A DNA stretch of 34,767 nt from Deltaproteobacteria bacterium (GTDB taxonomy: Bacteria; Desulfobacterota; DSM-4660; Desulfatiglandales; Desulfatiglandaceae), in the NCBI GenBank assembly GCA_021163815.1, contig JAGGTJ010000038.1, forward strand, positions 1 through 34,767, in the 5' to 3' direction. Both the position numbers and the translations under genes were made by a program. Positions 4,104-34,767 of the stretch are shown in pieces (the stretch's first letter is position 1; every line of letters begins with the position of its first letter). The notes beneath the pieces are model-generated. The model had not been told where the DNA came from and searched no databases. It was given only the letters and a program-made list of their open reading frames with translations.

Positions 4104-4191
4104 AAACCGGCATAACCGGAAAATGTCCGTGGCCACCTACGGATATGAAGATACGGCCTGGTTTTTCAGCACGGTTTTGGGTGGTAAAAAA
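4104..4191 (+). repeat. Dispersed intergenic repeat family A, copy A1
   Basis: AAACCGGCATAACCGG...GGCCACCTACGGATATGAAGATACGGCCTGGTTTTTCAGCACGGTTTTGGGTGGTAAAAA matches the other family A copies. Confidence 0.8.
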
Positions 4192-5992: not shown

Positions 5993-6148
5993 GGCATGGC
6001 CAGATTCAAACCTGTCTGTGTGTCAATGCATCTGCCTGTGCGCCAACGCACGCAGACAGGCGTAGACAGGTGCAGACAGGATGCCCTGGCCACCTACGGA
6101 TATGAAAATACAGCCTGTTTTTTCAGCACGGTTTTGTGTGTTTTTACG
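5993..6148 (+). repeat. Family A repeat, long subtype (copy A2), with 10-bp tandem units and fused at its right end to a family T end
   Basis: GGCATGGCCAGATTCAAACCTG...CGCAGACAGGCGTAGACAGGTGCAGACAGG...GGCCACCTACGGATATGAAAATACAGCCTGTTTTTTCAGCACGGTTTTGTGTGTTTTTACGACGCCATCAT. Confidence 0.8.
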
Positions 6149-6474
6149 ACGCCATCATACATTACATCAGACAAGTATTTGACGCTCTGATAAAATCGCA
6201 TGACAGGAACTTGATAGGCAGCATATTATGGGGGATCAAGTCTACATAATACACCTTAATGCCTTATGTGATTGTTAATGGATAGCGAGGCCTAATATTT
6301 TGGTCACTATCGGAAAATGGCCTGATTATGGGAGATGAATTTTGTGAAGGGAATGATTCGTCAGTGTCGAGGGACCTGATTTCTGAATCTGAATTCGTGA
6401 TGAACCTGTAAAAAGTCGAGTAGATGGCTAAGTAAAAAGCTGGTTTTTATGCTGCTTCGCCGCATGCTATGAGA

Positions 6475-7986: not shown

Positions 7987-8430
7987 TGATGAGCTCGTAA
8001 AAAATAAAACCGAAATATCAACGAATTATAGCAAGATTGTGCTTGCGCGGCACACATCGATTTGAACGCGGCCTAAACTGGCATGGCCGGATCCAAGACA
8101 TCATGGCCACCCACAGATATGAAAATACAGACTGGTTTTTCAACATGGTTTTGTGTGTTTTTATGGTAAAGGTTATGGTTTTTGGAAACAGGTTACCCCT
8201 AGGACAGCACCGATTTTACTGAAATAGGCGGGGATCCGCCCGAAGGGTGGGGAGTCCGAGTGAAACGAGGACAATCTGCGGTGTTGGCAAGGACGCAGAC
8301 GTACAATAATCTTACTATTCCAACTCTGTGTTTTTATACTATGGAACATTTGCAGAATATTTTGTTTTTGTTCGCAAAAACAGTACGGAAGGGACATTAT
8401 GCAGGCGTTTTACTTTTTGCGATGCCATCA
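7987..8430. mobile_element. Composite repeat element with TIR-like ends between glnB and glnA, containing a nested family A copy
   Basis: Left end TGATGAGCTCGTAAAAAATAAAAC; right end reverse complement TGATGGCATCGCAAAAAGTAAAAC; interior is family B sequence split by family A. Confidence 0.6.
8072..8178 (+). repeat. Family A repeat, short subtype (copy A3), nested in family B
   Basis: TAAACTGGCATGGCCGGATCCAAGACATCATGGCCACCCACAGATATGAAAATACAGACTGGTTTTTCAACATGGTTTTGTGTGTTTTTATGGTAAA; flanking sequence rejoins to match 12098-12245 reverse complement. Confidence 0.85.
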
Positions 8431-12097: not shown

Positions 12098-12245
12098 AGA
12101 CGTACTGCGATATTTTAACTTACTGTCAACACTGCGAATTCAGTAAAATTAGGTGTTGCCCTAAGGGTAAACTATTTCCAAAAACTGCCGCATTCAAAGC
12201 GATGCGTGTCACGCAAGCACAACCTTCCTATAATTTTCGTTGACA
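12098..12245 (-). repeat. Dispersed repeat family B, uninterrupted copy
   Basis: Reverse complement TCAACGAAAATTATAGGAAGGTTGTGCTTGCGTGACACGCATCGCTTTGAATGCGGCAGTTTTTGGAAATAGTTTACCCTTAGGGCAACACCTAATTTTACTGAA matches 8017-8071 joined to 8179-8224. Confidence 0.75.
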
Positions 12246-12339
12246 TTAACAGCATGGTTTTCTTTTTGAAAATAGTTTATGCGGGTTTTACGTCTGGAAA
12301 GATCATCTTATGTCTTAAAAATATTCGAGGATTCAAGTT

Positions 12340-16218: not shown

Positions 16219-16272
16219 TTTTACCGTAAAAGCGCACAAAATCGTGCTGAAAAATTAGGCGGTATTTTTCCT
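16219..16272 (-). repeat. Truncated family A copy (A4)
   Basis: TTTTACCGTAAAAGCGCACAAAATCGTGCTGAAAAATTAGGCGGTATTTTT. Confidence 0.65.
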
Positions 16273-19907: not shown

Positions 19908-20053
19908 TTTACCATGAAAACACACAAAACCATATTAAAAAACCAGTCTGTATTTTCATATCCGTGGGTGGCCAGGATATCCTGTCTGCGCCTGTCTGCG
20001 CCTGTCTGCGTGCGTTGGCGCACAGGCAGGTTTGGATCCGGCTATGCCGGTTT
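19908..20053 (-). repeat. Family A repeat, long subtype (copy A5)
   Basis: TTTTACCATGAAAACACACAAAACCATATTAAAAAACCAGTCTGTATTTTCATATCCGTGGGTGGCCAGGAT, three CCTGTCTGCG units, then GTGCGTTGGCGCAC...GGATCCGGCTATGCCGGTTT. Confidence 0.85.
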
Positions 20054-20213
20054 AGCATCCCAATATACACGAACTATAAGCGGTCTACAAATAGATTTGG
20101 GCACTATTGATACGCAAAAAGTAAAACTAATGGCTAAGTAAAAATCCTTCTACTGCGGTTTGCCCACCTTTTGTTGAGCTGATACGAAAAACGGATACTT
20201 TTACATATGTAAG

Positions 20214-25647: not shown

Positions 25648-25705
25648 CTCATCTTTTAAAAACAGTGTTTGGATCAAACTGATTTTATGCCCGTTTTTTA
25701 TGTTT

Positions 25706-25824
25706 TATGAACCTGTAAAAAGTCCGTCGCAAAAACCTTGAACACAATATATTGCGAGACTTAGCAAAATCCCCCTGTATGTTGAGGTCAATTCTCTGAT
25801 TTTCGACTTTTTACGACGCCATCA
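25706..25824. mobile_element. MITE-like repeat family T, copy 2 (opposite orientation to copy 1)
   Basis: TTATGAACCTGTAAAAAGTCCGTCGCAAAAACC...ACACAATATATTGCGAGAC...TTTTCGACTTTTTACGACGCCATCA; reverse complement aligns to 2680-2802. Confidence 0.75.
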
Positions 25825-25840
25825 TGTTTAAACCCATAAA

Positions 25841-26171: not shown

Positions 26172-27167
26172 TTGGGTAAACAGGTTATCGATGTGTTTAA
26201 TAAAAAACTTATAAGTATAACAGAAAAAATCATTAATAACAGGAAGTTTTCTCCCTCTTACGATGATATGGTAAGCCTTACGGGAGAGGATGTGTATGAG
26301 ATCTTGATATGTGCAAACAAGATCAGAGAACGCTATAAGGGGCAGGGCACCTTTACCTGTTCAATAATAAATGCCAAGTCAGGATCCTGTTCCCAGGACT
26401 GTGCCTTTTGTGCCCAGTCTGCCTATAATAAAACAGGCGCTGTAACATACCCCCTTATGAATGAAGCAGATATTGTAAGCAGGGCGGTTGACATGTACAA
26501 CGCCGGCGCCGACAGGTTTTCCATGGTTACAAGCGGTTATATGTTGAAAGACAGGGAGATAGATACCATATGCAGGGCCACTGAAAAGATCAGGCAAAAA
26601 ACGCCCCTTAAGGTATGCACCTCATTGGGTATGTTGACTGAATCCCTGGCACGCAGACTTAAGGAAAGCGGGGTGGATACCTATCATCATAACCTGGAGA
26701 CTGCGAGATCGTATTTTGCCAAAATATGCACTACGCATGACTATGATGAGGATATAGCAACAGTCAGGATAGCAGGCTCCGCTGGGTTAAGGACATGTTC
26801 AGGGGGAATACTGGGGCTTGGCGAGACATGGGAACAGCGTATGGAACTGGCCTTTACCCTGAAGGAGATGGATGTGGACTCCATTCCTGTCAATTTTCTG
26901 AACCCTATACCCGGAACCAGAATGGAGACAAGATCATTGCTTCCTCCCATGGAGGCAATAAAATCAATTGCCCTTTTCCGCATGATAAATCCGGATAAGG
27001 ATATTACCATCTGTGGTGGCAGAGAGGTTGTGCTTAAGGATTTTCAGTCCTGGATCTTTTTGGCCGGTGCTAATGGCATTATGATAGGGGATTATCTTAC
27101 GACCAAGGGACGGAATGCAGGTATGGACATGGAGATGATCCGGCAGATGGGACTTAAACCGGCCTGA
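26172..27167 (+). CDS. bioB: Biotin synthase
   Basis: Radical SAM motif SGSCSQDCAFCAQS; NHNLETA-like YHHNLETA; GLGETWEQR; NFLNPIPGT; TTG start. Confidence 0.97.
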   Translation: MGKQVIDVFNKKLISITEKIINNRKFSPSYDDMVSLTGEDVYEILICANKIRERYKGQGTFTCSIINAKSGSCSQDCAFCAQSAYNKTGAVTYPLMNEADIVSRAVDMYNAGADRFSMVTSGYMLKDREIDTICRATEKIRQKTPLKVCTSLGMLTESLARRLKESGVDTYHHNLETARSYFAKICTTHDYDEDIATVRIAGSAGLRTCSGGILGLGETWEQRMELAFTLKEMDVDSIPVNFLNPIPGTRMETRSLLPPMEAIKSIALFRMINPDKDITICGGREVVLKDFQSWIFLAGANGIMIGDYLTTKGRNAGMDMEMIRQMGLKPA

Positions 27168-27249
27168 CTGCAAGATATCATGGCTATTTCCGGATATGAA
27201 AATACATCCTGGTTTTTCAGCACGGCTTTGTATGTTTTTACGGTAAAAT
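27155..27249 (+). repeat. Family A repeat (copy A7) overlapping the 3' end of bioB
   Basis: CTTAAACCGGCCTGACTGCAAGATATCATGGCTATTTCCGGATATGAAAATACATCCTGGTTTTTCAGCACGGCTTTGTATGTTTTTACGGTAAAA. Confidence 0.8.
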
Positions 27250-31382: not shown

Positions 31383-31479
31383 TTTTCCGTAAAAATACAC
31401 AAAACCGTGTTGAATGACCAGGCTGTATTTTCATATCCATGGGTGCCCGGGATATTTTTGAATCCAGTCATGCCGGTTT
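31383..31479 (-). repeat. Family A repeat (copy A8) extending into the track ORF 31439-32356
   Basis: TTTTCCGTAAAAATACACAAAACCGTGTTGAATGACCAGGCTGTATTTTCATATCCATGGGTGCCCGGGATATTTTTGAATCCAGTCATGCCGGTT. Confidence 0.8.
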
Positions 31480-31513
31480 CGGTAAGAAGAACCTCTGGTG
31501 TGAGGATAACCAT

Positions 31514-32740: not shown

Positions 32741-32826
32741 AACTTCTCAATAAGTTGGGGCAATACAGTGTTCCCCCTCACCACAAGATATTGAGCTATT
32801 ACGATTTTTTTGATGTTTTCAGTTTG

Positions 32827-32922
32827 TTACCGTGAAAAAACATAAAACCGTACTGAAAAAGCAGGCCGTATTTTTTTATCCGTGAATGGTCAGAATGTCT
32901 TGGATCCGGCCATGCCGGTTTT
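32827..32922 (-). repeat. Family A repeat (copy A9) extending into the track ORF 32882-34150
   Basis: TTACCGTGAAAAAACATAAAACCGTACTGAAAAAGCAGGCCGTATTTTTTTATCCGTGAATGGTCAGAATGTCTTGGATCCGGCCATGCCGGTTTT. Confidence 0.8.

Positions 32923-34389: not shown

Positions 34390-34767
<378 letters not shown>

Follow-up and report, generated by a model that had tools for sequence, protein, structure and literature searches.

The window, i.e. the whole stretch of DNA analysed here (34,767 bp), is the complete contig C7 of a draft genome (G000) which comprises 1.60 Mb in 176 contigs and is 71 % complete. Copies of two dispersed repeat families, A and B, are found in it, and at one locus a family B repeat is broken by a copy of family A (Table 1). 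At the contig end a 16S rRNA gene (34390–34767, plus strand) runs off the sequence. A further pair of repeats of the GATGGCGTCGTAAAAAGTC type, in inverted orientation and 78 % identical over 125 bp, is located at 2679–2803 and 25704–25825.

Table 1 Family A and family B features of the window and one family B copy on contig C75
Feature	Position	Strand	Basis
Diverged family A copy	4104–4183	+	
Family A long variant (loop of hairpin 1 enlarged by an additional palindromic stretch), left end missing	6032–6148	+	
Family B MITE, left part, broken by family A	8014–8073	+	BLAST to 12247–12187 and other B copies
Family A element interrupting B: TAAA, hairpin 1, hairpin 2, TAAA	8074–8170	+	Profile match, sharp ends, empty-site alignment
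Left terminal TAAA	8074–8077	+	Conservation; single TAAA in empty sites
Right terminal TAAA	8167–8170	+	Conservation among near-full copies
Family B MITE continuing after family A (GGTTATG...)	8171–8223	+	BLAST, junction alignment
Family B copy without family A; atypical empty site, without ATAAAGGTTATG	12131–12255	−	
Partial family A copy, right end only	16220–16268	−	
Family A long variant	19908–20055	−	
Diverged family A copy, starting just before the stop codon of a bioB-like ORF	27156–27248	+	
Family A copy	31383–31480	−	
Family A copy	32826–32922	−	
Family B copy	L102 (C75) 6066–6367		

The host repeat, family B, is a separate dispersed MITE, mostly 262–290 bp long, with ACCTAAAWCCTGC terminal inverted repeats; apparent or probable 3-bp duplications were read by eye. 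In the 1.18 Mb of G000 that were fetched as stretches of contigs, and to which all counts of families A and B in this genome refer, 131 family B matches are present. As 22 of them touch the end of a retrieved stretch, family B may break assemblies.

According to the initial annotation, the B sequences on both sides of the interruption rejoin in the B copy at 12 kb, and a 107-bp family A unit lies between them. The rejoining is borne out by BLAST, which aligns 8014–8072 to 12247–12187 (84 %) and 8178–8223 to 12185–12139 (85 %). The stretch 8072–8177 is missing from the 12-kb copy, and the interrupter is indeed a copy of family A. Its description as a discrete unit stands, but its boundaries have to be moved to 8074 and 8170, giving 97 bp. 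Six other B copies (L065, L110, L083, L070, L052 and L057) have GCGGCC-ATAAA-GGTTATG or a near match at the junction, so that the last bases of the proposed 107-bp unit, GGTTATG, belong to B. The longer figure resulted from the use of the 12-kb copy, which lacks ATAAAGGTTATG, as the reference.

Family A recurs far beyond chance. An iterated profile search of these 1.18 Mb (E<1e-3) yielded 214 matches (about 18 per 100 kb), 113 of them full-length (about 10 per 100 kb). The consensus in G000 is 97 bp long (TAAACCGGCATGGCCGGATYCAAAATATCCTGGCCACCCACGGATATGAAAATACAGMCTGGTTTTTCARCAYGGTTTTGTGTGTTTTYAYGGTAAA), and in its alignment conservation at both ends mostly amounts to 1.0–1.9 bits per position. 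Around the 113 full-length copies the flanks are unrelated and conservation drops within a base or two beyond both ends, the first base outside reaching 0.33 bit on the left and 0.20 bit on the right; the ends are thus constant and not ragged. Of 111 near-full copies, 79 keep the left TAAA and 86 the right one. When the consensus end TAAACCGGCATGG is compared with the reverse complement of the other, TTTACCATGAAAA, any terminal inverted repeat is limited to about two bases. With 97–98 bp and no ORF the unit is too small for a transposase, none of which had been seen in it before, and a trans-acting enzyme is needed. Five linked diagnostic positions (20, 58, 70, 73 and 91) divide the G000 copies into subfamilies, as successive master copies would give. 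A role of family A as transcription terminator was considered and rejected, since no enrichment between convergent genes was found (14 '+-' against 36 '-+' neighbours).

From left to right, family A consists of TAAA, CCRGCA, hairpin 1, a linker, hairpin 2, three to four bases and TAAA. The stems are TGGCYGG/CCRGCCA in hairpin 1 and TGAAAAT/ATTTTCA in hairpin 2, and in four lineages the hairpin region runs from position 11 to a point seven bases short of the right end. Pairing of the stems in 30 sequences amounts to 91.7 %, compared with 33–51 % in slid controls, and both sides changed in five pairs. In a shuffle test of hairpin 1, 25 of 500 shuffles did equally well; the covariation of the stems within the alignment is modest. 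Covariation inside G000 alone was discarded as evidence for pairing because it mostly represents subfamily linkage. Separate folding of the consensus sequences of G000 and of three further genomes introduced below (G026, G070 and G072) predicts both hairpins in identical positions each time, with stems that differ among the lineages and are still complementary (TGAAAATACA/TGTGTTTTCA, TGAAAATAC/GTATTTTCA, GAAAATAGCC/GGGCGATTTTC and TGAAAGTTC/GAACTTTC). These predicted folds are stronger evidence for the hairpins than the covariation within the alignment. For the single copy of G071 the two-hairpin fold was not obtained. A long variant in G000 contains an additional palindromic stretch in the loop of hairpin 1 (e.g. 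window 19908–20055).

The conserved structure and the master-copy subfamilies would also be compatible with spreading via an RNA intermediate, i.e. reverse transcription of a small structured RNA. This is very improbable: Rfam gives no hit over family A, whether at the gathering threshold or at E<=1, a tail is missing, no linked reverse transcriptase was noticed, and both DNA ends are retained exactly, TAAA included.

For six family A insertions in the terminal repeats of B (L067, L068, L032, L053, L066 and L052) the junction was rebuilt with zero, one or two terminal tetranucleotides and each version was scored against the B profile; the version with one TAAA scores best in all six. At the window site the three versions reach 103.0, 101.6 and 101.0 bits, respectively, which is not discriminating. 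One more insertion interrupts a member of a third repeat family; in the alignment of five empty copies of that family the site is TAAATATCAAA, and the junction is less simple. The earlier statement that there is no clear target-site duplication can thus be refined: a resolved empty site possesses one TAAA-like tetranucleotide and a filled site TAAA at both ends of the element. Target duplications of other lengths or offsets were searched for around family A and nothing stood out.

Further filled and empty pairs come from relatives. A covariance model of family A found copies in four of 46 genomes of the window's family, namely G000, G026, G005 and G031. G026 has 21 closely alike, young copies with a mean pairwise identity of 94 %. 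At four of its insertions (L139, L136, L138 and L146) the orthologous intergenic spot in the sister species G005 is without the element, the G005 DNA at these spots being too diverged for an exact placement of the junction. A base-exact pair is provided by a G026 copy which sits in a dispersed repeat with many copies in G005: the empty copies read CCAGGGC-CAAA-ATGACG (or CGAA, CGAC instead of CAAA) and the filled one CCAGGGC-TAAA[CCAGC..CACGG]TAAA-ATGACG. Filled and empty pairs therefore recur and related organisms differ at the sites, and the mobility of family A proposed in the initial annotation holds with the corrected boundaries. That the window pair reflects a deletion in the 12-kb B copy or chance shuffling of repeats, with family A immobile, has next to no probability. 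The 12-kb copy has lost extra junction bases and this pair alone could indeed be a deletion, but the unrelated flanks of the 113 full copies, the repeated one-TAAA pairs, the species-specific insertions and the base-exact pair are contrary to it, and we regard this reading as refuted.

One insertion, with identical flanking bases, is common to G026 (L135) and G005 (L148), two species whose identity at many other loci is about 80 %; this may reflect recent transfer or misbinning.

Beyond the family, a GTDB-wide scan with the left end matched further Deltaproteobacteria and Desulfobulbaceae MAGs. In G070 (Dive100_bin10.32) 210 left ends with at most one mismatch were counted, in G072 (Desulfobulbaceae) 17 and in G071 one. 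The distribution is patchy, as the CAGC form of the left end was matched in 5 of 85 genomes of the window's class. Viral contigs scanned with the left-end pattern gave no match.

Family A is inserted nearly always at TAAA, a non-palindromic target which is read in one orientation throughout. The preceding base is C in nearly all G026 copies (mostly GGC) and in about half of the older G000 copies; it is A in 23 of 24 single copies or array starts of G070. Among the young copies of G026 the left tetramer is TAAA in 21 of 21, and the right one is TAAG twice and TAAT once. The end variants of the G000 copies are likewise mostly not mirrored; two older copies do have mirrored ends, CAAA/CAAA and TAAG/TAAG. 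Unmirrored variants make a target duplication less probable. This bears on the rather unlikely reading that family A is a MITE of a DDE transposase with a 4-bp TAAA duplication and very short or lost terminal inverted repeats. A single TAAA in empty and a double one in filled sites is what a 4-bp duplication would also give, the two mirrored copies fit it, and other MITEs are active in these genomes. DDE MITEs such as family B are, like family A, short, non-coding, of high copy number and mobilised in trans. However, they have terminal inverted repeats (the ACCTAAAWCCTGC repeats in B) and usually target duplications, whereas an inverted repeat in the family A consensus is no longer than about two bases, the target is non-palindromic with a constant orientation, and most end variants, those of the young copies included, are unmirrored.

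An orientation bias relative to GC skew (66 of 181 copies on the G-rich strand, p=0.0003) was rejected as evidence for lagging-strand transposition because it is explained by the C-rich strand being richer in CTAAA and CCTAAA: tested against 0.44, the 36 of 96 full copies give p=0.22.

Many of the left ends in G070 belong to head-to-tail arrays; the units measure about 95 bp, one TAAA being common to each pair of neighbours, and no genes are present between the units in the arrays seen. The right end is GGATAAA in G070 and GGTAAA in G000 and G026. Since ATAAA corresponds to the target in G070, each insertion would create a new ATAAA target; the GTAAA end deviates from the CTAAA preference, which would be a simple explanation for no arrays being seen in G000 and G026. 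Units joined via a shared TAAA, a short and constant junction and the missing terminal inverted repeat could also point to a serine or tyrosine site-specific recombinase (IS607-, IS110- or integron-like) acting at TAAA, the arrays being cassette-like additions. We consider this unlikely: the hundreds of scattered sites have only (C/A)TAAA in common and no extended attachment site, and integron attC sites combine one long hairpin with gene cassettes, in contrast to the two hairpins and gene-free arrays of family A.

Missing terminal inverted repeats, subterminal hairpins, a target used in one orientation and mostly unmirrored end variants fit single-strand transposition in trans by a Y1 HUH enzyme, as described for IS200/IS605 elements and their transposase-free relatives, the PATEs (PMC7290912, PMC3119063, PMC5934647). 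Family A would move in single-stranded, folded form; the enzyme, with its gene at another locus, would bind both hairpins, cut at the two terminal TAAA and attach the element to a new TAAA, which is mostly CTAAA in the case of G000 and G026 and ATAAA in G070. There, the element's own ATAAA right end would serve as a target and give rise to the head-to-tail arrays. A Y1-type HUH transposase acting in trans is the most likely candidate, and family A would then be a PATE. The explanation as a whole, a discrete non-autonomous transposable element of 94–98 bp with constant ends and without an ORF which is moved by such an enzyme, has in our judgement an even chance of being right.

The PATEs of Haloquadratum walsbyi share palindromes with IS605-type transposons of the same genome (PMC3119063). 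Family A resembles them in its transposase-less size, the absence of terminal inverted repeats, near-terminal palindromes, high copy number and strain- or species-specific insertions, often within other mobile elements; it differs by the lack of a detected IS605-type partner and by its arrays in one lineage. With the IS200/IS605 elements IS608 and ISDra2 it has in common a hairpin near each end, a target of four or five fixed nucleotides and no terminal inverted repeats (PMC5934647, PMC7290912). Unlike these elements it is without tnpA, the Y1 gene being located elsewhere, and where IS608 uses TTAC (left) and TCAA (right) (PMC5934647, PMC7290912) it carries TAAA at each end. Guide sequences were looked for by eye with the IS608 pairing scheme, and none was recognised at a place, or with a match, consistent among all lineages. 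REP/REPIN sequences, presumably mobilised in trans by the Y1-type RAYTs (TnpA-REP), are likewise short, structured, intergenic and of high copy number (PMC3116915, PMC8266576). REPs are palindromes of 20–50 nt following a GTAG-like tetramer and paired in inverted orientation, whereas the two hairpins of family A are unlike, its TAAA ends are direct and its arrayed units lie head to tail.

A transposase with matching ends, as envisaged in the initial annotation, was not found. G000 contains a single IS200-like tnpA (Y1) in L102 (C75, 6524–6883), adjoining a B copy; it was rejected as the partner because its own ends form different hairpins (CCTTGCCC/GGGCAAGG). In G026, which has the youngest copies, the search for Y1 transposases gave only a fragment and a degraded match, and neither the retrieved stretches nor the left-end scan of G026 contained an autonomous element with family A ends. 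Three unpaired left ends of G026 were rejected as autonomous copies, one being cut by another repeat and two being diverged short copies. RAYT-type genes of G070 and G072 were discarded as partners too, as they are not bounded by family A; an array lies near one gene fragment only. As G000 is 71 % complete and the search covered about three quarters of its assembly, the absence of the enzyme is weak evidence. Because a relation to an IS605-type end was looked for without success, family A may be called PATE-like in behaviour rather than a proven PATE. Going further, its members in distant Desulfobacterota may together represent a class of mini-elements which are flanked by TAAA, possess two hairpins, lack terminal inverted repeats and are moved by an enzyme not yet described; where their own end equals the ATAAA target they would insert beside themselves and build arrays. 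This is a tentative proposal which, taken in full, is more doubtful than the explanation given above. A literature search of limited coverage found no report of such elements in Desulfobacteraceae or Desulfobacterota.

Family A has a high copy number in an uncultured lineage, its boundaries are well set, filled and empty pairs occur naturally and several lineages carry related sets. How targets are chosen, what the hairpins do and how arrays form can thereby be tested directly, and the search for the missing enzyme is a defined one. Furthermore, repeats like family A probably add to the fragmentation of such metagenome assemblies.

L240 (QNBZ01000161.1), which is filed under a Planctomycetota MAG, is 98.5 % identical to G000 contig C25 without gaps over 4,439 bp, including one filled family A site, and is therefore probably misbinned. 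In G026, about 138 hairpin ends of the CCCGTGAGAAAWGCGGG type were noticed, often as inverted pairs and with YTAR-like flanks such as CTAA/TTAG (L150–L179; G026 and G005). Several family A copies directly abut such CCCGTGAGAAAWGCGGG ends.
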